DNA of 64,000 nucleotides from an uncultured bacterium (GTDB lineage: Bacteria > Armatimonadota > UBA5829). The stretch is taken from positions 1 to 64,000 of the forward strand of contig CALJES010000003.1 of NCBI GenBank assembly GCA_938074205.1. The letters run 5' to 3'. Each line of letters begins with the position of its first letter. Within the stretch, counting starts at the first letter, position 1. Both the position numbers and the translations under genes were made by a program. This document shows, one piece after another, positions 4,288 to 22,148 of the stretch. The notes under the pieces are model-generated. The model was given only the letters and a program-made list of their open reading frames with translations, was not told the DNA's origin and did not search any database.

Positions 4288-4385
4288 TCTGGGTGGTAAA
4301 TAGACCTTAGTTCTGTGTTTTGAGCCGTTAGGTTTCGAGGCTACTTAGGTAAACGAGACAATTTGCTTCCTTGCTTTTGATTTCC

Positions 4386-5045
4386 ATGTTTGAGACCTTG
4401 CGTGAGGACTGGCGGGCTGTTTTTCGCAACGACCCAGCAGCGCGAAGCGCGCTCGAGGTACTTACCTATGCTGGTCTACACGCCATATTCTGGCACAGGG
4501 TGGCGCATTTCTTATGGCGTCACAATCTGAAGTTTGTCGCGCGCCTTATTTCCCAGATCAACAGGTTCTTCACTGGTATCGAAATTCACCCTGGAGCACG
4601 AATTGGTAAGGGATTCTTTATCGACCATGGCATGGGAGTGGTTATAGGTGAGACCGCTGAAATAGGCGAGAATTGTCTCTTGTATCACGGTGTTACCTTA
4701 GGCGGCGTAAGCTTGGAGAAGAAAAAACGGCATCCTACACTCGGCAACAACGTTGTTGTGGGTGCAGGCGCAAAGGTTCTGGGTGCTATAACGCTTGGGG
4801 ACAACGTTAAAGTTGGTGCTAACGCGGTGGTGTTGAAGGACGTGCCTCCCAACTGTGTCGTCGTGGGCAATCCTGGAAGGATTGTGGTACAAGATGGCAA
4901 ACGGGTTCAGGAAGAGCCGCTCACTCACGGTCGAGATTTGGACCCGGAGGGCGAGATGATGCGGTGTTTAGTTCGGAAGATTGAGGAGTTAGAAGTTCGT
5001 CTGCGAAAACTTGAGGAGAAGCGTAATGGCTCTGAATCTGTATAA
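4386..5045 (+). CDS. cysE: Serine O-acetyltransferase CysE
   Basis: Transfers acetyl from acetyl-CoA to L-serine, the first step of cysteine synthesis. From ATG 4386 it has 219 residues: a helical N-terminal part ([19 protein letters not shown] is typical), then a left-handed beta-helix of hexapeptide repeats from about residue 65, with the family motifs [12 protein letters not shown] (His81) and YHGVTLGG (His101). A TTG start 15 bases upstream is possible, but the ATG fits the family start better. The C-terminal tail (about 185-219) is predicted helical and charged. The 3' end overlaps cysS by 20 bases, so cysteine supply and Cys-tRNA charging are coupled in one operon. Confidence 0.93.
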
Positions 5046-6453
5046 TACTCTGACTCGTCGGAAGGAGTTATTTGAACCTTTAGAGCCAGGGATCGTGCGG
5101 ATGTATACTTGCGGCCCCACGGTGTATAACTATGCCCACATAGGCAACCTTCGCACATACATATTCTCAGATATTCTCCGCAGAGCCTTGGAATATGAAG
5201 GCTACGACGTTCTTCACGTGATGAACGTTACAGACGTTGGTCACCTTACATCGGATGCGGACGAAGGCGAAGACAAAATGGAAAAAGGCGCTCGCGAAGC
5301 AGGTAAGGACGTCTGGGAAATAGCCCGCTTTTACGAAGATGCATTTTGGCGCGATCTCGAGCTGCTCAATATCGAAAAGCCTAAAGTCGTATGCCGTGCC
5401 ACTGAGCACATTCCGGAGATGATAGCACTCATACAGCGTCTGATCGAGCAAGGCTACGCATACGAGACAACGCAGGCGGTCTATTTCGATATCAGCAAGT
5501 TTCCTAGATACACTGAATTTACACGGCAGCCGCTAGAGCAGAAGGTAATAGGAGCCCGCGAGGAAGTTCAGGAAGATCCGGACAAAAAGCATCCTGCGGA
5601 TTTTGCGCTTTGGTTCAAGGCAGTAGGGCGGTTCAAGAACCATATTATGCGCTGGGATTCGCCTTGGGGAGTTGGTTTTCCTGGCTGGCATATTGAGTGC
5701 TCTGCGATGGCAATGAAGTACCTGGGTGAAACCCTGGATATACATACTGGTGGTGAGGATCACATCTGGGTACATCACCCAAACGAGATTGCCCAGAGCG
5801 AGGCGGCTACGGGGAAACAATTCGTGCGTTTTTGGATGCACGGAGCTTTCCTTGTTGTAGGCAATCTAGACGGAAATGATGAAGACAAGCGCATGGGCAA
5901 GTCCGAGGGCAATTTCATCACACTTCAGACTCTGATCGACAAGGGTTACAATCCGTTGGCGTATAGGTATGCGTGCTTGATGGCGCATTATAGACAGAAG
6001 CTGCGGTTTACCTGGGACTCTATTGAAGCTGCCGCGGCTGGATACTCGTCGCTTCAGCAGTTTGCTGCTCGAGCACTGCAGATAGGGGGGAATGAGCCGC
6101 CTTGGGTCGCCGCATATCGAGATCGATTTCGAGCCGCAATAGAAGACGATCTGAACATGCCCCAAGCCATGGCAACCGTTTCGGAGATGACTAGAGAGGC
6201 TGAGACTCGGAGGGAATATGGCGTACTGAACGTGCTCTACGATTTCGACCGAGTGTTGGGACTTAAGCTGCGCGAGTCAGCTGAGGCTGCGACGTCTATC
6301 GATCTTTCGATTCAAACGCTTATCAAGGAACGAGAAGAAGCTCGTAAGGCTAGGAATTGGGCACGGGCAGACGAAATCAGAAACCAGCTCGCGGAGCAAG
6401 GGATTGTACTGGAGGATACTCCTAGCGGTACACTTTGGAGGCGGACCCGCTAG
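5026..6453 (+). CDS. cysS: Cysteinyl-tRNA synthetase CysS
   Basis: Class I synthetase that charges tRNA-Cys. I chose ATG 5026 because it is preceded by GAGGAG and gives the family start [14 protein letters not shown]; it overlaps cysE by 20 bases. Visible features are the zinc Cys29 in YTCGPTVY, the HIGH-type motif AHIGN (residues 37-41), the second zinc cluster in [10 protein letters not shown] and the [15 protein letters not shown] segment, and the KMSKS-type loop as RMGKS near 290-293. The 475-residue length is normal. A tRNA-Cys gene lies 1.7 kb downstream (8192-8266). Confidence 0.96.
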
Positions 6454-7985: not shown

Positions 7986-8060
7986 GGGCGATTGGCTCAG
8001 AGGGAGAGCGCTTCGTTCACACCGAAGAGGTCACTGGTTCGAATCCAGTATCGCCCACCA
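7986..8060 (+). tRNA. tRNA-Val (anticodon CAC)
   Basis: The cloverleaf folds without mismatch: acceptor GGGCGAT/ATCGCCC, D stem GCTC/GAGC, anticodon stem CTTCG/CGAAG with loop TTCACAC, and T stem ACTGG/CCAGT with TTCGAAT. The anticodon CAC reads GTG. The CCA end is encoded (8058-8060). First of three tRNAs transcribed from the promoter at 7943. Confidence 0.95.
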
Positions 8061-8063
8061 AGT

Positions 8064-8138
<75 letters not shown>

Positions 8139-8148
8139 AAAGTTAATA

Positions 8149-8181
8149 GCCTCCGGATTTCTATTTGACTATTCCGGAGGC
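8149..8181 (+). other. Hairpin in the tRNA-Gly/tRNA-Cys spacer
   Basis: A perfect 9-base-pair inverted repeat (GCCTCCGGA / TCCGGAGGC) with a 15-base loop. No T-run follows, so it is more likely a processing signal in the tRNA precursor or a weak attenuator than a terminator. Confidence 0.5.
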
Positions 8182-8191
8182 CGAGAGTTGA

Positions 8192-8266
8192 GGCGACGTA
8201 GCCAAGTGGCTAAGGCAGCGGTCTGCAAAACCGCCATCACCGGTTCGATTCCGGTCGTCGCCTCCA
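8192..8266 (+). tRNA. tRNA-Cys (anticodon GCA)
   Basis: Acceptor GGCGACG/CGTCGCC, D stem GCC/GGC, anticodon stem GCGGT/ACCGC with loop CTGCAAA, and T stem CCGG/CCGG around TTCGATT. The anticodon GCA reads cysteine codons. CCA is encoded. It is the last gene of the cluster and lies downstream of cysS. Confidence 0.95.
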
Positions 8267-8302: not shown

Positions 8303-8510
8303 CTTGTACGGGCTAGCTTCGTTTCCTGCTAGGATCAGCTTTTAATCGTTTTTGGTTAGGGTTATTCGATGCGGAGAGGAATGCTTTAGGCGAAGGACAT
8401 TTCTTTCTGTGTGCGGCTAAAGCAATAATCATCTGCGTGTTGATCAAGGAGCAAACTTGTGTTGACATACGGCAGGTCGTTGTGTAAACATTAGCGGAGG
8501 AGATGGCGCC

Positions 8511-9755
8511 ATGGGCGAGGTAAAGGCTTTCATTTGCGATCCAGCCGAAATCCGCCAGTTCCATTGTGCTTTTGACGCCGACGTGCCAGTATCAGCTGCG
8601 GCTTTCAGTTTGGCTATACTTGCCAAGTTTCCCGCTGTGGATTGCTGTGGTAAGCCTATCCAATATGCTTTGATTTCTCCTGATGTCGGAATAATTGGTT
8701 CCCATGAGCCCATTGGCAAGGCCATTACCAGTCCAGGTCCTCGTCTATGGCTCGTTCCTGAATTGGTGATATCTGCAGAGGAAATTCGTGATGATAGTAC
8801 AAACGAGGCAGCCGAACCACCTCCTTCCGAGCAGCCCCGTGCTCGTACTTCAATTCTGGAAGACCGTTGTCTCTTGCACGACGAGGGGCTTAATCTCCCG
8901 ATCGACATAACTGTAGACTCTGCTGCGCACCGTCAAATAGAAGAGTTTGTAGTTAGCGATAGAAAGAATGAGAGGGCGGGTCTGCTGTTGGGATATGTGA
9001 CACTTATGGGACGACGCAGAAACATTCATATCTGCGGCGTTTGTCCTGCAACAGTGGCTCGTGGAGATTCTTCGACTGTAATGATGACTTTCGCAGCCTG
9101 GGAGAACATGCTGCTGACACGAATAACGCAATATCCTGGCCTGCGAATTCTTGGTTGGTTCCACAGTCATCCGGGAAGAGAAACGGCACTTTCGGAACAA
9201 GACCTGTTCCTGCATCAACACTTCTTCCCGCACCCAAATATGGTAACTTGCGTATTCGATCCAGTTCTGGGACGCTCTGAGTTTTTCCATTGGCGTAACG
9301 GGGAAGTTGTTCCTTCTAAGGGATATGGAAGAGTCGACACAACACCGGCTGTCGACAACCTGCGTTTTGCGACAAGATCGCACAGGCATTGGCAGGTCAG
9401 GGCACTAGCATACGCTGCTGTAATTGGCGTGTTAGGAAGCGGCCTTTATTTTGGATTTGGTGGCAGTAGGAAAAACACTCCGTACCAAACCTCCAATGTT
9501 CGGCGCACGCCGCCCCGCGTTGATCGGAAAGTTTCACTCACTTCTCTGCGAACGTCGAAGCCTTCACCCGATCGGGTATACGTACTGGGAAAGCGCGATA
9601 ACCTTTGGCTGATTTGTAAGCGATTTTACGGGGATGGTTCGCTGGCGTCTGAGTTGGCCAGATATAACGGCATTAGCGATCTCACAAAACTCCAGGTTGG
9701 CCAACGGATCAGGATTCCTGAAAAGAGCGTTCTGGTAAGAAAAGTTGCGCATTAG
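8511..9755 (+). CDS. Ubiquitin-like / JAMM metallopeptidase / LysM fusion protein
   Basis: A 414-residue multidomain protein. Residues about 2-87 read as a ubiquitin-like (YukD/EsaB-type) beta-grasp domain: strand KAFICDP, second strand and helix, then IQYALISPDVGII and the final strand RLWLVPEL. Residues about 130-275 are a JAB1/MPN/Mov34 (JAMM) domain with its zinc set complete: Glu154 in ERAGLLLG, then His218 and His220 (FHSHPG) and Asp231, i.e. HxH-x10-D. A single membrane segment follows (about 297-318) and a LysM domain ends the protein (about 355-405). JAMM enzymes cut isopeptide bonds or ubiquitin-like tails; LysM binds peptidoglycan. The combination is rare, and substrate and topology are unknown. 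ATG 8511 follows GGAGGAG. Confidence 0.85.
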   Translation: MGEVKAFICDPAEIRQFHCAFDADVPVSAAAFSLAILAKFPAVDCCGKPIQYALISPDVGIIGSHEPIGKAITSPGPRLWLVPELVISAEEIRDDSTNEAAEPPPSEQPRARTSILEDRCLLHDEGLNLPIDITVDSAAHRQIEEFVVSDRKNERAGLLLGYVTLMGRRRNIHICGVCPATVARGDSSTVMMTFAAWENMLLTRITQYPGLRILGWFHSHPGRETALSEQDLFLHQHFFPHPNMVTCVFDPVLGRSEFFHWRNGEVVPSKGYGRVDTTPAVDNLRFATRSHRHWQVRALAYAAVIGVLGSGLYFGFGGSRKNTPYQTSNVRRTPPRVDRKVSLTSLRTSKPSPDRVYVLGKRDNLWLICKRFYGDGSLASELARYNGISDLTKLQVGQRIRIPEKSVLVRKVAH

Positions 9756-12323: not shown

Positions 12324-12591
12324 TCTATTGAATCAATAGAGAGTAATACAACCATCAATGGGGTGGAGCTGGTAGTCTTTAGTCCTATTGTTCTATCACC
12401 AAAACAAAAGTAATGAACAGGGATGCCCTCGCGAAGCGCATTCGCTGAACGGACTGCGCGCAGTATTGTTTTCCTCAGTCACTTCCTGGCCCAGCGAGTC
12501 TTCGCAATTCTAAATGCATTTTAACTACTCCTGGTCGAATGTTGCTAGGAGCAGGAACCTTATCCTTTTCGCGGAAAGAGAGGAGCGAACT

Positions 12592-13275
12592 ATGGCTTCC
12601 ACGGGCGTTAGGCTTCTACTGATCGCAGCCGCATTAACCATCGCATCAGTCTACGTCGCAAGCGCAGCAGATATTTACGTGGACGCTTCGGCTACGGGTG
12701 CCAATAACGGCTCGTCGTGGGAAGATGCATTCACTACCATACAAGCGGGTATCAGTGCTGCGTTGCCTGGGGACGTGGTATGGGTAAACCGCGGGGTGTA
12801 TAACGAGAACATAGATTTCTTGGGCAAACCTATAACGGTTACCTCCATCGATCCTTTGAATCCTGCTGTGGTGGCGTCAACTGTCATTGACGGTGGAGGT
12901 AACGGCAGCGTCGTTAAGTTTGTGTCAGGAGAGTCTAACGATTCTGTTCTCACAGGTTTTACCATACAAAACGGTACAGGCACGCTAATCGACGGAGTCA
13001 CGTATGGTGGTGGCATTTATTGCGGCATTGGTTGTTCCCCAACCATTCGCCACAACATAATTATTAACTGCACGGCTGACGTTGGCGGTGCTATATACAC
13101 GCGGGGTAACACACCTCCGCAAATCACTGATGGACCTTCGGCGTCATATCCCTATGCGGGCAAGGGTGAAGAGATTACTCTTTCAGTGACTGCTCAGGAT
13201 CTAGATGGCGACATCCTGACATATACGTGGACCCCGCTCGACGGAGGCTCTATACTGGTTCGGGACCATCCGTAA
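12592..13275 (+). CDS. N-terminal part of giant secreted beta-helix protein (cut by a frameshift)
   Basis: ATG 12592 follows AGAGGAG and begins a clear signal peptide (MASTGVRLLLIAAALTIAS, cut after about AASA-like VYVASA). The mature start, DIYVDASATGANNGSSW, and the following rungs are typical of right-handed parallel beta-helix (pectin-lyase-like) surface proteins. The rungs run to GGAIYTRGNTPPQI (about residue 182), where a PKD/cadherin-like Ig segment begins (LTYTWTPLDGG). The frame then shifts: after codon 13252-13254 it gives 7 unrelated residues and stops at 13275, while the expected continuation (TGSGPSVTYTSP) is in the frame one base back and runs to 22148. One extra base near 13254 would restore a single gene of about 3,180 residues. 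Confidence 0.85.
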   Translation: MASTGVRLLLIAAALTIASVYVASAADIYVDASATGANNGSSWEDAFTTIQAGISAALPGDVVWVNRGVYNENIDFLGKPITVTSIDPLNPAVVASTVIDGGGNGSVVKFVSGESNDSVLTGFTIQNGTGTLIDGVTYGGGIYCGIGCSPTIRHNIIINCTADVGGAIYTRGNTPPQITDGPSASYPYAGKGEEITLSVTAQDLDGDILTYTWTPLDGGSILVRDHP

Positions 13276-16200
13276 CATATACATCTCCAGCGTCGGGGCT
13301 TCGCCGCATCCGGGTTACGGTTTCTGATGGTCGAGGAGGCCAGGCTATCGCTGAGTGCACCGTGACTGTTATAGGCGTCAAAATACAGACACCTCTTCCT
13401 CAGCTGGTTGTCGGTCAGACGGTGACCATTTCTGCTTTGATAGATCCAGCCATAGAAGATTCAGAGACGTACCCTGTTTCTATAACTTGGAGTTTGATCG
13501 AGGGTCCTGCAGAAGGTAGCTTTGACTCGCTAGTTAACGGTCAACCTGACGCAACTTCTATAGACTTTACCCCTACAGCTAGTGGTCCGGGAAGGATCCA
13601 GGTGGAATATACGGTTGGTACTGCACGTGCGGTAGATACGGTCGCCATAAACCTTATTCCCGTTGTTGATTTAGTAGAGCCCTCTTACGGCGTGCTAGGC
13701 ACCACAGTTCAAGCTGTCATCACCGGTAAGAACCTGGCGCGTGTTACTGAAGTGTCGCTTCTTCCAGAAACTGGAGTTACCGGAACTTTGAAACCGGGAA
13801 AAACCGAGACGACCTTGCCGGTTGAATTTGTAATCGCTCCCAGTGCAGCACCAGGCAGTCGCGTAATTGTTCTGGGTGTGCCTGAGGGGCAGATAAACAC
13901 AGGTAAGATGTTCGAACTGCGCACACCGCCTGCAATAACGGCGGATCCGTCATCGCTTAGTCTCTTGACTGGTCAAACCGGAAACATCACTTTCAGTATT
14001 CCGGACACTGCGCCCCCTGGTGGTGTTCAGCTGGTTCTGTCCAGTTCGGTTCCCATTGTGGCAACTGTTCCGGGAAGCGCAACTATACCCGAGGGCCAGA
14101 GTTCTGTAGTCGTAACTGTTACGGCTGTTTCCTATGGACAGACTGTGATTACCGCCAACGCTGTCGGGTACTATAGGGCTCAGGTGCCAATAACCGTTAT
14201 TAACCCACCTCTTATCAGCTTCTCTCCGTCAACATTGACCGTAGCAAAGGGGTTAGTCCAAAAATGCACAGTTAGCATATCCAATCCAGCGCCTGACGGC
14301 GGTCTAGTCGTGAACCTTTCGGGTGGGGGAGGACTGGTTGATTTTCCTTCTAGCGTGGTAATACAGCCGGCTAAGCAGTCTGGCCAGTTCCAAGTGCGTG
14401 CCCTTCAGGAAGGTAGCACCATAATAACTGCGTCGGCGGTTGGATATCCGAGCGCCGATTTGCCCGTCACAGTAGGTCCTGGTCAACTAGTATTGTTCCC
14501 GAGTTATCTTCCGATTGCAGCCGGACGCTCGTCCACTCTGCAGCTTATGATCCCAAATGAGGCACCACCCGGCGGACTGGTGGTAGACATTTCAAGCAGC
14601 AATACGTCGGTTGTGGCTGTTCCCTCAGCTGTGACAATACCGGAGGGGCAGAAGTCAGCTCAGGTTCCGGTTACCGGCATAATCGCGGGGCAGGCCGTAG
14701 TCACGGCGATTTTGGAAGGCTTCACAAGTGCACAAGCAACGGTGAACGTACTTCCCACCTTCAATATCTCCTTCTTGCCAAGTTCTTTGGTTATGCCACC
14801 AGGGGTGACCAAATCTACCGACGTCGTAATTTCCGCCGCTGCTCCGGCAGGGGGACTAACGATAACCCTGTCCAATCCTTCACCTGACAAGTTCTCCATG
14901 CCAGAAAGCGTCTTCATTCCTGAGGGAATGTACTCTGCGACAGTTGCGGTGACAGGACTTGCCACTACTGACCAGCCGGTGGAAGTAGTTGCTACATGTC
15001 CAGGCTTAACTGAGGGCATTCTGCAGGTCACTGTCCAACCGATTCTTGCTTTGTATATGCGTGCGGATGTCAAGGTGGGAGTAGGCTGTCGAACAAGCGG
15101 AAGCATTGGACTTACAAGTGGAAGCGCACCTCCGGGCGGTTACACAGTCAATGTGTCTGTGGATGATCCTGAGATCGCATCCGTACCACCACAGGTAACT
15201 ATTCCTGCTGGCAGTAGCTGGACTTCATTCACGATAGTTGGAAATAAACCTGGGATAACGAATTGCCGTCTCACCCTTCTTGGTTTCGAGGAAGTGGACA
15301 CTGTCACTGTAGGGACTCCTACTTTCGTGTGGGACAGTGTGATGAGTTTGATGAATTTGGGTCAGACTGACAGTGTTCGTGTGTATACGTATGTTCCTGG
15401 TGGTTCTTATGGTTATGGCAACTATGTGTATTCTGACACTTCTCAGAATGTGGATCAGGCTTTAACGATAAGCGTTACTAGCACTAATCCGAGTGTTATA
15501 AGTGTACCGAGTGTGATGTTGATTCCTAGTGGTCGTTACTATGCTGACTGGATAACTGTCACGGCGGTAGGTGCTGGTAGTGCTCGTTTGGTAGCTAGTG
15601 CTGTTGGTTGGGATATGAAGGAGAGTTCTGAGATCACGGTTACTGGTGTTACTCCGTATATGCGTGCGGATGTGACGGTAGGTGCTGGTTGTCGCACTAG
15701 TGGTTCTGTAGGTTTAAGTGTAGGTAGTGCTCCTGTTGGTGGTTATACGTTCTATTTATCTAGTGACGATCCTGGTGTTGCGAGTGTACCTAGTCAGGTA
15801 ACTATTCCGTATGGCAGCAGTTGGCAATCTTTCACGATAGTTGGTGTAAGTCCTGGTAGTACTAAGATACGTTTGAGTGTTCCTGCTGAATTAGGTGGTT
15901 ACACAGAGGAGGACACTGTCACTGTAGTGACTCCTACTTTCGCGTGGGACAGTGTGCCTTCACAATTGACAATAGGTGCGGTCGATAACGTTCGTGTGTA
16001 TACGTATGTTCCTGGTGGTTCTTATGGTTATGGCAACTACGTGTACTCAGACGCATACCAGAATGTGGACCAGGCCGTTATAGTGACTTTAATGAGCCAG
16101 AATGCAGGGGTAATTCAAATGCCTGCCACTACATCCATCGGTGCCGGCAGATATTACAGCGACTACGTAAACGTTTCGGCTGTTGGCACGGGAACCAGCA

Positions 16201-19200
16201 CACTTACTGCTAGCGCGTCTGGATTCGCGTATGCGGTGAGCGGTCTCATAACCGTAGTAGGTCCGTGGCTCCGTGCGGATGTCACAGTCGGTGCCGGCTG
16301 TCGAACCACGGGATACGTGGGGTTAGTCGGAGGCGTTGCTCCTTCGGGGGGTTACACGGTATATCTCAGCGTCGATAATCCCGATCTTGTGAGTGTTCCT
16401 GGCACTGTGACCATACCTAGCGGTTCCTCACAAACTTCATTCAGCATAGAGGGATTGGCAGTCGGCTCGACCTTCACACAAATGTCCGTGTCAGGGTTCA
16501 TCGATCGAGACCGAACAACAGTGGTCGCACCAACGTTTGAATGGCTCAGTGTTGCCACGTCCTTGAACGTCGGCCAAAGTGATAGTGTATACATTCAGAC
16601 ATACGTACCTGGCGGAACCTACGCGTCGGGCAATGGCGTCTACACGAATACGAATCAAGCCGTGCGTAGTGCGGTCACCATTGCTATCTCGAGCGAGAAT
16701 CCATCAGTCTTGGTTGCTCCGGAAACGGTGACTATCGCAGCTGGAAACACTTGGTCCGGTTGGTTCAATATGACTGCTGTTGGTCCTGGCACAAGCAAAT
16801 TGACTGCAAGCGCTGTGGGGTGGAATCCTGCCCAGACTGATCTGATCACGGTCAACCCCGCAGGTGCCAAGGCGCCATTGCTACCTGTATGGTTCGAAGC
16901 AGAGCTTCCGCATCTTGAGTATGGTGTTGTCGGCGCTGCCGCATCCGAAAGAGCCGATAATAAATCAGCTTGCTATATTGACGCATTGAGTGCTCAAGGA
17001 GGGCCTGTATATTTGATCTTGCCCGCATCAGCACTGATAGGCAGCCAAGGGAAGCTTGAAAGCGACGCTGGTACTCTTGATGGTTGGAACTCTGGGCCTC
17101 GAATTGAATACAACGTGATAACGGGAAATAATGCTGGGGCAGGCGGCGCTATAGCAGTTTACAACTCCAGTGTCACGGTTCTCGGAAACATAATCGTAGC
17201 CAACTCTGCAACTTCGGATGTCGGCGGCGGAGCAATATACATCGACGGTGCGCTTGCCAACGCTGTCGTGCGCAGCAACACGATCTGCGCCAATACGGCA
17301 GTTTCCGGCGTTGGAGGAGGCATATATCTCGCAGCTGGAACGGCTGCCGTGACCAACTGCATCCTCTGGCAGAATACTGACGATTTGTTCGGTTGCTCGA
17401 CGACCTACTCAAATGTAACTGATATCAACTCCGATCCTGGTACTGGCAACATATCTGCTGATCCGCAGTTCGTCCAGACCTCTGATCCCATGCTCGGCCA
17501 TTACTTCCATCTCAACTCAGCTTCGCCATGCGTGAACGCGGGTGATCCTAACTATGTTCCTATGCCGGGAGAGACCGATATAGACGGCGAAGCAAGAATT
17601 TCCAGCGGCAGGGTGGACATAGGAGCAGACGAACTTCCTGATTTTAGCCCACCTGAAACTACAATAACTGGCGGCCCATCCCAGGGATCGACCGCGTGCA
17701 GTTTGCCTGTTAACTTCAGTTGGCAAGGTACAGACGATACGCCGATCGGCATCACTTACTCCTATCGCATTGACAATAGCGACTGGAGCGGATGGTCAGC
17801 ATCAAACTCTGTGAGCTTTGCTTCTCTGCCAGATGGGCCCCATACGTTCGAGGTCAAAGCGAGAGATGGTTCCGGCAACGAAGACCCAACTCCTGCACGG
17901 TGCGACTTCTTGTTGGATACCACTGCGCCTGTCATATCTCAGGTTACTCCAAATGCGGGCAGGACCAGTGCGATAATTACTTGGGTTACTAATGAGGGTG
18001 CTACTTCGCAAGTCTTGTACGGACCTACCGATGCTCTGGGCCAAGCTACCTACATCAATTGGGTTTATAAGACAAACCACGCCGTCACTATCACCAACCT
18101 GCTGCCGAACACAACCTACTACTATCAAGTTAGATCTCTCGATAAATGCGGTTACGAGAGTACGTCTGAGTTATTCGCGCTGACGACCGCGCTCGACACA
18201 ACATCCCCGGACACACAAATCACCTCAGGTCCTTCACCGAACTCGATAGTGTGTTCTCTGCCGGTAACATTCACTTTCACTGGAGGCGACGACAGCACGC
18301 CTGTTTCGCTACTAACGTATGCCTATCGCGTAGACGGCGGAGCTTGGAGCGACTTCAGCGCGTCTACAACAGCTTCGATTACTGAGTTGACGTCTGGTCC
18401 TCACACGTTTGAGGTCAGAGCTAAGGATGTATCAGGTAACGAGGACGACACTCCTGCAGCTAGAAGCTTTGTCGTGATGCTGGATCCTGCAGTAATCTCG
18501 AATGTCCAGTCTAATGTTGCTCAGATGCAGTGCACTATAACCTGGACGACCAATGTTCCCTGCACTTCTAAGGTGCTGTATGGTGAAACTGCAAGCTACG
18601 GTCTCGAATCGCCTGAATATGGTTCGCTGGTAACTTCTCATAGCGTGGTCATAAATGGTCTTGATCCCGGAAAGACGTATCATTACGCGGTTCGCTCCAA
18701 GGATTCGTGCGGCAGGGAGGTTATATCCGGCGATCATACATTCACCACACCTCCGGACACTGGAGAGCCTAACACTTGGTTTACTAGCGGTCCTTCTGAA
18801 GGCGGCCTTGTGTGTTCCACATCTCAGCAGTTCTGCTGGAGCGGAAGTGACACGTTAACTCCAACGGACCAACTGACTTACTCCTACAAACTGGACTCTG
18901 GTTCGTGGTCTACGCCGACTCCTGAGACTTGTCGAACGTTCACTTCTCTTACCGAAGGCACTCATACGCTGTATGTGCGTGCCCACGACACGTCGGGCAA
19001 TGTTGATTCGAGTCCCGCGCAGCGCACATTCAGGGTAGACCTATCTACCGGAACTATCTCCAATGTGAATGCTGCTGCGGGTTCAGTTGAGGCTACTGTG
19101 GTATGGCGTACCAGCGAGGCGATGGACTCGCAGGTTGAATATGGGACAACTCCTAGCTACGGTTCGGTAACCCCTCCGAATCCTGCGCTTGTGACTGATC

Positions 19201-22148
19201 ACAGTGTAGTTATTACAAATCTCTTACCTGAGACAACTTATCACTATCGTGTGCGCTCCAGAGATGGCTGCGGTAGGGAGGTCGTTTCTGGAAACTACAC
19301 TTTCACCACGAAAGCAGACAAAACGGCTCCGCAGACGGTGATAACCTCAGGTCCGCCTGCGAATGGCAAAGCTTGTTCGACGGTCGTAGATTTCTGTTGG
19401 TCTGGCAACGATGATGCAACCCCAATAGACCAGCTGGTCTACTCGTATAAGATGGATGAAGGTTCATGGAGCGACTGGACTGCTGAGGTGTGCAGGCAAT
19501 TCACCAATTTATCTGAGGGTTTGCACACATTTATGGTGAAGGCAAAGGACAGTGTAGGCAACGAAGATGCAAGTCCTGCAGTTAGATACTTCTATGTTGA
19601 TTTGACTTCGCCCACAATATCTGAGGGTAGTGTCACGGCTTCACCAAGGCAGAGTACGTGTATCATCAACTGGCGTACAGGCGAGCCAGCAACTGCGCAG
19701 GTGGAATATGGTACTACGCCGGCCTACGGCAAGATATCAGCCGTGGATCCGAACATGCTTTCGGTCCATAAGATTACGATCAGTGGATTGACACCAGAAA
19801 CGACCTATCACTATCGCGTAAGATCAAGCGACGGCTGTCAAGAAGTCGTATCTGAGGATTACACGTTTACTACAACCGCTGTTCAGCCTCCGAATTTGAG
19901 ACCTACGCAGCTCAGTTCTCTAGTCACCACGTTTGCACACTCTACCGTGAACATAAAGTGGACTGTTCAGAATGCTGGTCCTGGGGATGCGGAAGGGTCT
20001 TGGACGGACAAGCTTTATTTCTCTGAGGACGAATTAATAGACGCCGGTGACACATTACTATGGGAGGGTACTGGCAGTTCACCGCTTGCGGTGCCTTATA
20101 CATATTCGAAGCAGGTAGACATTCAGATGCCAATGAAGCCCGTCGGCCTTTATTATCTGATTCTGAAGACTGATGCCGATGGCTCGCTTAGTGAGACCAA
20201 CGAGCTGGACAACGTGTTTGTTCAGCCTATCACGTTCACAGCTGATAAGCCATTAATTGCTGCGCCCGGGGCGTTTAGCGTTCGGTTGGATCCGCAGGTT
20301 GCGGCTTATGGTCAGTTTGACTTGTCCAATATTGGCGATCGGGAGCTGACAGGCATATCTGCAGTCGTTGTCGATGCGCCTGCGAACATCAGCTTGATTG
20401 TGTCTAATGTGGTGCCTACAATGGCTCCTCTCACCAATCGCAGGATTAGCTACCAACTGACAGCAATTGACGAGTCTGTCTTAACTGCTTCTCCGAAGGT
20501 GGTTTTCACGACAAACGAAGGTGCTTCGGCTACAGTGACATTTGACCTGACGGTCAGACCCAGGCAGCCCAAGTTGGTTGCAAATCCTGGCTATTTGGCC
20601 GGTCCGATGGTCCGCGGCAAACAGACGTTCTACGAGTGTGAAATAATAAACCAGGGCGGCGTGCCTGCAAACGATCTGCGAGTGCTGATACCTGCTGCCG
20701 ATTGGTTGAGTTTAGTGACGCCTGCAGATCTTGGTACGTTGGCTCCAGGTGAGAAGAAGACAGTTGGACTTTCGCTAATGCCGCCGGCTGACATGCCATT
20801 AGGTGACTACACGAGCAACTTTGTGGTGGTTGGAACAAATGCGAACGTATCAGTTGGTTTCCGCTTTACCTGTGTATCAACGCAGATCGGAGGACTGAAG
20901 GTTTACGCGGAGGATGAATTCACTACGTTTGCTGAGGATCATCCCTATGTTTCTGGTGCCAGGGTTGTGCTCAAGGACTACTCGACGGGTGAGTCAAAGT
21001 ATGAGGGTATTACCGGTCCGGATGGAGTCTGGCTGAACGATAACATTATCGAAGCAAACTACTACCTGGAAGTGTCCGCTGAAAAACACGGCACGTATCG
21101 TTCTCCTATCCAGATTGTGGCCGGGCAAACCAAGGAAGTCCACGCGTTTATACCCAGGCAGCTAGTCACCTACAAGTGGACTGTTGAGCCGATTATGATT
21201 GAGGATAAGTATCGTGTCGTTCTTGAGGCTACGTTCGAGACTCACGTGCCAGCGCCTGTCGTTACCATAGAGCCTAGAACACAGGTGGTCCCTGTTGTCG
21301 AAGGTCAAACAGCTATCAGCTACATCACAGTGACGAATCACGGACTCATATCGGCACACGAAGTAGAAGTTCGGATCAACGATACGGCTAATTGGTATGT
21401 CACACCAGCAATTCGCCAGATCGGAGAGCTGCCGGCTATGACGTCTGTACGAGTGCCGATTTACGTCCGAGCAAAATCCGACGGACCCATCACTGAGCTT
21501 CCTGACGTAGCCACCTCGACATTATCTGCTGAGGCAGCGCTGGCTGCTGCATCTACCACATCTACTGCTAATCTGAACGAGGGGGGTGGAACGACGGGCG
21601 GTGGTCAGCCTAGCTTGTGTGACATCCTAAGCGGTGCAGTGGTGCACATTGTCTACTGTTCAGGTGGTCAGTGGAAGACTGCGGATTTCAGCTTGTCTCC
21701 TTTGTTCCTGTTACTCGATCTTTTGGACGGGCTTGGTTGCCTGACCGGTAACATACAGAGCTGCTTGTCATTAGCGTGCAGCTTGGCAAAAGTTGATCCT
21801 TGCATCTGTGCGCTTATTGATCCGCTCTCCGCCGGTGGAGCTGTCAACATTGCCCAGTGTCTTGCTTGCCATGGATTTCCTGGAGGCGGTGGCGGAGCAG
21901 GTCCTGGCGGAGGAGGTGCCGGCACAGGTGGCGGTGGTGGAGTTTGGTGGGGTCCCGGAAATATTTCCGGCCCGGCGAGCATCGAAGAAGAGGTGCCGTG
22001 CGATCCTGCGACCAGACCACAAGGGTTGTTCGGTGTGTTCAACGAGTTTGCTCCTGAGCCTATCAGGACGGTTACTATAACTTCTCCGCCTGATATTGCG
22101 AGGTATGGTGGCAAGTTGGTGCGCTATAGGGTTAATCTGCTGCCGTAG
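13227..22148 (+). CDS. Main part of giant secreted Ig/beta-helix/FN3/CARDB protein
   Basis: Continuation (from about base 13254) of the protein beginning at 12592. Order: a PKD-like end, then many Ig-like units of about 80-100 residues (13400-15050), three 200-residue repeats (15054-16857), a second beta-helix segment ending in GRVDIGADE (about 17090-17635), four Ig+FN3 modules (17650-19880), a CARDB domain (about 19890-20250), more Ig-like units, a carboxypeptidase-regulatory-like fold (about 20890-21170), and a C-terminal part with several cysteines and a Gly-rich stretch (about 21880-21960). No LPXTG, PEP-CTERM or membrane anchor is visible, so it is probably secreted or held by other surface proteins. 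Likely an adhesin or scaffold; no enzyme motif is seen. ATG 13227 is only the first Met of the open frame, not a credible start. Confidence 0.85.
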   Translation: MDPARRRLYTGSGPSVTYTSPASGLRRIRVTVSDGRGGQAIAECTVTVIGVKIQTPLPQLVVGQTVTISALIDPAIEDSETYPVSITWSLIEGPAEGSFDSLVNGQPDATSIDFTPTASGPGRIQVEYTVGTARAVDTVAINLIPVVDLVEPSYGVLGTTVQAVITGKNLARVTEVSLLPETGVTGTLKPGKTETTLPVEFVIAPSAAPGSRVIVLGVPEGQINTGKMFELRTPPAITADPSSLSLLTGQTGNITFSIPDTAPPGGVQLVLSSSVPIVATVPGSATIPEGQSSVVVTVTAVSYGQTVITANAVGYYRAQVPITVINPPLISFSPSTLTVAKGLVQKCTVSISNPAPDGGLVVNLSGGGGLVDFPSSVVIQPAKQSGQFQVRALQEGSTIITASAVGYPSADLPVTVGPGQLVLFPSYLPIAAGRSSTLQLMIPNEAPPGGLVVDISSSNTSVVAVPSAVTIPEGQKSAQVPVTGIIAGQAVVTAILEGFTSAQATVNVLPTFNISFLPSSLVMPPGVTKSTDVVISAAAPAGGLTITLSNPSPDKFSMPESVFIPEGMYSATVAVTGLATTDQPVEVVATCPGLTEGILQVTVQPILALYMRADVKVGVGCRTSGSIGLTSGSAPPGGYTVNVSVDDPEIASVPPQVTIPAGSSWTSFTIVGNKPGITNCRLTLLGFEEVDTVTVGTPTFVWDSVMSLMNLGQTDSVRVYTYVPGGSYGYGNYVYSDTSQNVDQALTISVTSTNPSVISVPSVMLIPSGRYYADWITVTAVGAGSARLVASAVGWDMKESSEITVTGVTPYMRADVTVGAGCRTSGSVGLSVGSAPVGGYTFYLSSDDPGVASVPSQVTIPYGSSWQSFTIVGVSPGSTKIRLSVPAELGGYTEEDTVTVVTPTFAWDSVPSQLTIGAVDNVRVYTYVPGGSYGYGNYVYSDAYQNVDQAVIVTLMSQNAGVIQMPATTSIGAGRYYSDYVNVSAVGTGTSTLTASASGFAYAVSGLITVVGPWLRADVTVGAGCRTTGYVGLVGGVAPSGGYTVYLSVDNPDLVSVPGTVTIPSGSSQTSFSIEGLAVGSTFTQMSVSGFIDRDRTTVVAPTFEWLSVATSLNVGQSDSVYIQTYVPGGTYASGNGVYTNTNQAVRSAVTIAISSENPSVLVAPETVTIAAGNTWSGWFNMTAVGPGTSKLTASAVGWNPAQTDLITVNPAGAKAPLLPVWFEAELPHLEYGVVGAAASERADNKSACYIDALSAQGGPVYLILPASALIGSQGKLESDAGTLDGWNSGPRIEYNVITGNNAGAGGAIAVYNSSVTVLGNIIVANSATSDVGGGAIYIDGALANAVVRSNTICANTAVSGVGGGIYLAAGTAAVTNCILWQNTDDLFGCSTTYSNVTDINSDPGTGNISADPQFVQTSDPMLGHYFHLNSASPCVNAGDPNYVPMPGETDIDGEARISSGRVDIGADELPDFSPPETTITGGPSQGSTACSLPVNFSWQGTDDTPIGITYSYRIDNSDWSGWSASNSVSFASLPDGPHTFEVKARDGSGNEDPTPARCDFLLDTTAPVISQVTPNAGRTSAIITWVTNEGATSQVLYGPTDALGQATYINWVYKTNHAVTITNLLPNTTYYYQVRSLDKCGYESTSELFALTTALDTTSPDTQITSGPSPNSIVCSLPVTFTFTGGDDSTPVSLLTYAYRVDGGAWSDFSASTTASITELTSGPHTFEVRAKDVSGNEDDTPAARSFVVMLDPAVISNVQSNVAQMQCTITWTTNVPCTSKVLYGETASYGLESPEYGSLVTSHSVVINGLDPGKTYHYAVRSKDSCGREVISGDHTFTTPPDTGEPNTWFTSGPSEGGLVCSTSQQFCWSGSDTLTPTDQLTYSYKLDSGSWSTPTPETCRTFTSLTEGTHTLYVRAHDTSGNVDSSPAQRTFRVDLSTGTISNVNAAAGSVEATVVWRTSEAMDSQVEYGTTPSYGSVTPPNPALVTDHSVVITNLLPETTYHYRVRSRDGCGREVVSGNYTFTTKADKTAPQTVITSGPPANGKACSTVVDFCWSGNDDATPIDQLVYSYKMDEGSWSDWTAEVCRQFTNLSEGLHTFMVKAKDSVGNEDASPAVRYFYVDLTSPTISEGSVTASPRQSTCIINWRTGEPATAQVEYGTTPAYGKISAVDPNMLSVHKITISGLTPETTYHYRVRSSDGCQEVVSEDYTFTTTAVQPPNLRPTQLSSLVTTFAHSTVNIKWTVQNAGPGDAEGSWTDKLYFSEDELIDAGDTLLWEGTGSSPLAVPYTYSKQVDIQMPMKPVGLYYLILKTDADGSLSETNELDNVFVQPITFTADKPLIAAPGAFSVRLDPQVAAYGQFDLSNIGDRELTGISAVVVDAPANISLIVSNVVPTMAPLTNRRISYQLTAIDESVLTASPKVVFTTNEGASATVTFDLTVRPRQPKLVANPGYLAGPMVRGKQTFYECEIINQGGVPANDLRVLIPAADWLSLVTPADLGTLAPGEKKTVGLSLMPPADMPLGDYTSNFVVVGTNANVSVGFRFTCVSTQIGGLKVYAEDEFTTFAEDHPYVSGARVVLKDYSTGESKYEGITGPDGVWLNDNIIEANYYLEVSAEKHGTYRSPIQIVAGQTKEVHAFIPRQLVTYKWTVEPIMIEDKYRVVLEATFETHVPAPVVTIEPRTQVVPVVEGQTAISYITVTNHGLISAHEVEVRINDTANWYVTPAIRQIGELPAMTSVRVPIYVRAKSDGPITELPDVATSTLSAEAALAAASTTSTANLNEGGGTTGGGQPSLCDILSGAVVHIVYCSGGQWKTADFSLSPLFLLLDLLDGLGCLTGNIQSCLSLACSLAKVDPCICALIDPLSAGGAVNIAQCLACHGFPGGGGGAGPGGGGAGTGGGGGVWWGPGNISGPASIEEEVPCDPATRPQGLFGVFNEFAPEPIRTVTITSPPDIARYGGKLVRYRVNLLP
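15054..16857 (+). repeat. Three tandem repeats of about 200 codons inside the giant gene
   Basis: Units start at 15054, 15657 and 16266 (603 and 609 bases apart), each opening with Y/W-MRADV or W-LRADV, then VGxGCRT, a GGYT strand and a second half with YVPGGSYGYGN. A 50-base stretch is identical between units 1 and 2 (15375-15424 and 15990-16039), showing recent duplication or gene conversion. Each unit looks like two Ig-like domains. Confidence 0.85.
17650..19880 (+). repeat. Four tandem Ig-plus-fibronectin-III modules
   Basis: Modules start near 17652, 18206, 18766 and 19327 (about 555-560 bases, 186 codons each). Each has a TITSGP-like opening, a conserved ACS/VCS cysteine, YSYRID-like and GPHTFEVKAKDxSGNED strands, and then an FN3 domain with TTYHYRVRS and a cysteine after it (DGCGREV). 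The paired cysteines suggest disulfides outside the cell. Confidence 0.85.

Follow-up and report, generated by a model that had tools for sequence, protein, structure and literature searches.

The gene at positions 8,511 to 9,755 of the window (the whole 64,000-nucleotide stretch of DNA analyzed here) raises the question of what a single bacterial protein would do with a ubiquitin-like (Ubl) domain at one end, a LysM domain at the other, and a JAMM metallopeptidase domain and a membrane segment (TM) in between. A preliminary description made from the letters of the window had noted this order of parts and proposed a stand-alone, self-processing envelope peptidase. The presence of all four parts in one open reading frame was borne out by Pfam, fold and ortholog comparisons, and the features of the locus are as follows:

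8496..8502, plus strand: ribosome-binding site GGAGGAG, 8 nt 5' of the ATG, read directly from the sequence
8511..9755, plus strand: Ubl-JAMM-TM-LysM fusion, 414 aa, ATG start; full-length orthologs in 9 further genomes, 57-28% identity
8511..8774, plus strand: N-terminal YukD-family Ubl (beta-grasp), residues 1-88, tail PELVIS; HMM and fold
8775..8892, plus strand: linker, residues 89-128, of low conservation by ortholog comparison
8895..9338, plus strand: JAMM/MPN+ metallopeptidase domain, about residues 129-276; Pfam and fold
8970..8972, plus strand: E154, the JAMM catalytic glutamate, invariant in 10/10 orthologs
9162..9203, plus strand: H218-x-H220-x7-S228-x2-D231, zinc and catalytic residues, invariant in 10/10 orthologs
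9384..9458, plus strand: single transmembrane helix, about residues 292-316, with N-in/C-out charge bias, from the sequence
9579..9719, plus strand: LysM domain, residues 357-403; Pfam PF01476, E 1.1e-7
7986..8266, plus strand: tRNA genes Val, Gly and Cys, just upstream and outside the system

The N-terminal part, originally described as only beta-grasp-like, can now be placed with more confidence. Residues 1-93, when predicted alone (pLDDT 89, pTM 0.79), form a strand-strand-helix-strand-helix-strand arrangement for which the closest solved structure is the EccD Ubl of ESX-5 (E 7e-5), with further beta-grasp matches to archaeal ubiquitin bound to Rpn11, Ufm1, ISG15 and the bacterial Ubl of a Ubl-deubiquitinase complex. 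At the sequence level, the window N-terminus matched zero Pfam domains. An HMM built from the fusion N-termini and searched against 2461 ORFs recovered free Ubls at E values of 3e-18 to 7e-15 and no ORF beyond the free Ubls and the fusions. A second, independent HMM, trained on free Ubls alone, found in turn the N-termini of nearly all relatives (1e-17 to 2e-7) but matched that of the window weakly (E 0.0095) and missed that of L003, the nearest relative; the divergent Ubl copies are those of the window's genus. Based on these reciprocal profile searches, the N-terminus of the fusion is homologous to the free YukD-family Ubl.

The JAMM domain was recognized by Pfam (JAB/Prok-JAB, residues 133-237) at an E value of about 5e-6, above the curated cut-off. 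The zinc and catalytic residues had been read as complete, and E154, H218, H220, S228 and D231 indeed proved invariant in an alignment of 10 orthologs, with no degenerate copy among them. The two conditions under which the preliminary description would have failed, a fold other than beta-grasp and degenerate JAMM residues, were thus both examined, and neither held. In structure alignments, which covered the window protein and related loci, the best Foldseek match of the JAMM part was 6fnn (Caldiarchaeum Rpn11 with ubiquitin; E 3.8e-8), and comparison with Rpn11/CSN5 gave VIA Z values of 18-19 over 138-153 aligned residues at an rmsd of 1.8-3.1. The JAMM domain is apparently intact and is predicted to be an isopeptidase.

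The placement of this enzyme relative to the membrane follows from its C-terminal half. LysM scored 32.1 bits against a cut-off of 20.9, and there is one membrane span only, which in the window protein is of moderate hydrophobicity and lies in a low-confidence region of the full-length structure model. No signal peptide is apparent in the 290 residues before the span, and positive charge is in excess N-terminal of the span in 9 of the 10 orthologs. From the single span, the lack of a signal peptide and the positive-inside rule, we infer that the Ubl and JAMM domains are in the cytosol and LysM is outside, where it would hold the C-terminus in peptidoglycan. The term "envelope peptidase" would consequently be appropriate only in part, for the LysM end.

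It had further been stated that the fusion has neither an E1 or E2 gene nor a separate gene for a Ubl within reach. This is correct within the window but wrong at the genome level, since the same genome (G000) carries a complete Ubl-E1-RING-RING-JAMM-E2 operon (L035:6367-10838) on contig C12, i.e., apart from the fusion, which is on contig C3. Pfam identified in this operon a YukD domain (3.8e-14; the free Ubl), ThiF (1.2e-53; the E1), UQ_con (1.8e-10; the E2), Prok-RING_1 twice, and JAB; the free Ubl is 95 aa long, both RING-like proteins are membrane proteins, and the JAMM protein has a membrane span. Larger operons in relatives hold an HtrA-like membrane protease, Ubl, E1, a JAMM-TM-LysM protein, RING proteins and E2s, and additionally further JAMMs and an FHA protein. 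The JAMM-TM-LysM gene adjoins the E1 gene in the operons examined, and its product (e.g., L037:8172-9152) has the same domain order as the fusion and is its closest JAMM relative; unlike the fusion, it has no N-terminal Ubl, and several members show an acidic motif before the JAMM domain.

Sequence searches of the genomes, on which our genome-wide statements rest, found the fusion in 11 of the 15 genomes of one Armatimonadota family (10 full-length and one fragment at a contig edge). No other family represented in the 291 genomes of the phylum yielded a fusion; the matches listed for these other genomes have frame lengths that fit free Ubls. A tree of 33 JAMM domains placed the ten fusions in one clade (support 100/100) with a long stem (1.37), and the sister group of this clade consists of the JAMM-TM-LysM proteins encoded by the operons of families f1 and f7 (support 87/92). 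On this comparative evidence, the fusion arose once, in one Armatimonadota family, and derives from a YukD-type Ubl conjugation system.

In the same family, G000, G002, G005, G009 and G010 have an E1, an E2 and a free Ubl, whereas E1, E2, free Ubl and Prok-RING_1 were undetected in the draft assemblies of five fusion-bearing genomes that are 98-100% complete (G003, G004, G008, G011 and G013). The best E1 matches in these five were partial (28-36% identity, <180 residues), a level of similarity that housekeeping proteins of the MoeB/ThiF type would give. Between two of the operon-less genomes (G004 and G008), the Ubl has a dN/dS of 0.10 and the JAMM domain one of 0.05, which indicates purifying selection on the fusion after loss of the system. 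It thus appears that the fusion can function without the conjugation system, whose absence is judged on draft assemblies. Unexpectedly, the stand-alone idea holds for five sister genomes that kept the fusion and lost the machinery, but not for the window's own genome.

A search for the same architecture returned the full-length orthologs of one family only, and their flanks were compared as well. In five relatives (L071, L072, L073, L074 and L076), a gene of the inositol monophosphatase family (Pfam-confirmed in one) lies directly 3' of the fusion, sometimes overlapping it, as if the two were in one transcript. An HDOD-like gene (also Pfam-confirmed in one) adjoins the fusion at L070:3581-4465, L075:1574-2464 and L078:7938-8798; the window is without it. 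Farther downstream in the window, the overlapping ORFs 12514-13275 and 13227-22148 look like one large repeat-rich protein, and the same protein apparently occupies one frame in a sister genome (L078:11706 on), so a frameshift in the window near 13,230-13,275 is possible.

We favor, with a rough probability of 0.62, the hypothesis that the fusion is a relocated duplicate of the operon's JAMM-TM-LysM deubiquitinase that acquired a fixed Ubl and acts as a wall-tethered isopeptidase. The parts of this hypothesis that are based on comparison are the homology of each part, the single origin, the intact catalytic residues and the operon-free retention. Under this hypothesis, the membrane-anchored JAMM-TM-LysM gene of the operon would have been duplicated and relocated, and fused one time to a copy of the system's own Ubl. 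The cytosolic JAMM domain, a predicted working zinc isopeptidase, would be tethered to both membrane and wall, while the fused Ubl would never be released or conjugated and would instead serve permanently in docking or regulation, much as in those eukaryotic deubiquitinases that contain a Ubl, and it might touch the strand predicted just N-terminal of the JAMM domain (linker residues 113-120, TSILEDRC). In operon-bearing species, including that of the window, the fusion would strip Ubl from tagged membrane-located proteins; in operon-less species, it would have to act on another substrate. The divergent window N-terminus, the 87/92 support for the sister relationship, the 1.37 stem, the moderate hydrophobicity of the window's span, the low model confidence around it and the draft state of the operon-less assemblies count against this hypothesis. 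We advance only tentatively, as possible but somewhat doubtful, the prediction that in several Armatimonadota the fusion is the sole detectable remnant of a lost system, with a Ubl-independent role at the membrane or wall, a Ubl that regulates the JAMM domain and a new kind of substrate.

Alternatively, the JAMM domain might free its own Ubl, either feeding the conjugation system or activating the enzyme, as the preliminary description had envisioned. The Ubl does directly precede the JAMM domain, the window's own genome has a working-looking E1 and E2, and the CsRpn11 JAMM protein is known to process ubiquitin precursors (PMC6043591). However, PEITAG stands at or near the end of all seven aligned free Ubls with its glycine invariant, while the corresponding glycine is kept in only 2 of the 10 fusions (the window has PELVIS), and the linker that follows the fused Ubl is among the least conserved parts of the protein and diverges fast. 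The glycine loss in 8/10 fusions and the variable linker are evidence against the fused Ubl being released and conjugated; further, the five genomes without E1 and E2 would have nothing to use a freed Ubl, and an ordinary free Ubl gene already exists in the window's own genome. Self-processing is, therefore, unlikely. Among the free Ubls themselves, those of the window's genome (L035:10551-10838) and of its nearest relative (L036:5838-6125) continue after PEITAG with GCFCVC and ESFRVC, respectively, whereas the others end at the glycine, except for one extra Arg in L041. The six additional residues would need trimming, which suggests that these two Ubls are precursors.

It is also conceivable that the JAMM domain faces outward and is brought by LysM to peptidoglycan crosslinks as a cell-wall or periplasmic peptidase, a role with which LysM itself, the VanW/peptidoglycan-binding protein encoded upstream of the fusion and the retention of the fusion without a Ubl system would be compatible. 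We consider this improbable given the 290 residues ahead of the span, the missing signal peptide and the N-in charge bias in 9/10 orthologs, all of which point the other way, as do the affinity of the JAMM domain, by fold and by tree, to ubiquitin-type isopeptidases and the purifying selection on the Ubl domain. That the fusion is a decaying paralog, i.e., a fossil of the conjugation system kept by chance, could account for the long stem branch and the weak similarity of the window Ubl, but it is very unlikely for a protein with catalytic residues intact in 10/10 orthologs, LysM retained and the frame open over its full length in each of the ten, and with dN/dS values of 0.05-0.10 between two operon-less genomes. 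Finally, JAMM enzymes act on a Ubl in CysO-Mec-type pathways, and serine acetyltransferase (cysE)-like and CysS-like neighbors (4371-6453; families assigned by eye) might hint at such a cysteine/sulfur pathway, but this has hardly any chance of being correct since the Gly-Gly end is absent, a membrane span and LysM would be out of place there, and cysE/cysS-like genes are not among the window-derived neighbors in the flanks of nine relatives.

The operons themselves show a further feature. A short acidic-hydrophobic motif, DDLDIxL, recurs near the termini of otherwise unrelated operon proteins (HtrA-like, E1, E2, JAMM and RING-TPR proteins; L035:6367-6939, L037:5674-13789, L038:3375-10359, L046:4535-9412 and others), for instance at the C-terminal end of the HtrA-like protein (DDLEIELK) and of E2 (DDIDISLG) and at the beginning of E1 (DDLGIEL) and of JAMM-LysM (NDADIEL). 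We counted 35 copies in the 54 operon proteins, whereas shuffling predicts 7.5 (about 5-fold; 1000 shuffles, maximum 21); 28 of the 35 copies are near a terminus, and the motif is found in 29/54 operon proteins vs. 8/63 neighbors (Fisher p 2e-6, which is generous because proteins of the same family are not independent). The motif looks like a SUMO-interacting motif, and our guess is that it is a putative Ubl-binding element; the predicted strand at residues 113-120 of the window protein is at about the position of the motif in the operon JAMM-LysM proteins. In the operon of G029, the HtrA-like protease is short (L041:5230-5841; 203 aa vs. 305-345 elsewhere) and keeps a C-terminal DDLDITL. We do not claim a DDLDIxL regulon, since the corresponding DNA pattern gave only 0-4 matches per genome and occurred in system-less genomes as well.

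To our knowledge, bacterial E1-E2-RING-JAMM systems with YukD-type Ubls have been described mainly by comparative genomics. Burroughs, Iyer and Aravind reportedly described such YukD-Ubl/E1/E2/RING/JAB operons in 2011 (Mol BioSyst 7:2261), with parts of the same kinds as in the operon of the window's genome and its relatives; the fusion differs in being on another contig, in having its own glycine-less Ubl and in persisting where the operon is gone. BilABCD and CBASS Cap2-Cap3 are likewise bacterial Ubl-type conjugation systems with a JAMM protein, but their Ubl and E1/E2 architecture is different: the operon E1 aligned with BilD over about 110 residues only (E 4.6e-10), E1-E2 models matched it better, and the free Ubl is single-domain as opposed to the double Ubl of BilABCD. 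The idea of a defense system was rejected, as PADLOC gave only generic E1-E2 and JAB matches. EccD (ESX-5)/YukD resembles the fusion in having a Ubl joined to a membrane protein, but EccD is part of the type VII secretion pore and has no JAMM domain. In the Caldiarchaeum Rpn11-ubiquitin structures (6fnn/6fno; PMC6043591), a JAMM fold meets a beta-grasp partner as in the fusion, but the two are separate chains and have no membrane or LysM parts. A Ubl and a JAB domain do share a single chain in TAPI-JAB of one E. coli prophage (Iyer et al. 2006, PMC1779556), which, in contrast to the fusion, is a phage tail protein. A phage origin was rejected, as a tblastn search of 50,697 phage records yielded, among the matches listed, only LysM (11% of the query). 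Among the papers that our literature search covered, none describes a Ubl-JAMM-TM-LysM protein, or one kept without its conjugation system.

In conclusion, the Armatimonadota system is linked here with enzymes anchored in membrane and wall, namely the JAMM-TM-LysM proteins, the membrane RING proteins and the HtrA-like protease. With one enzyme common to species with and without conjugation, the role that a JAMM domain and a Ubl may have in the absence of conjugation becomes testable, and the fusion represents a natural experiment on JAMM and Ubl function outside conjugation.
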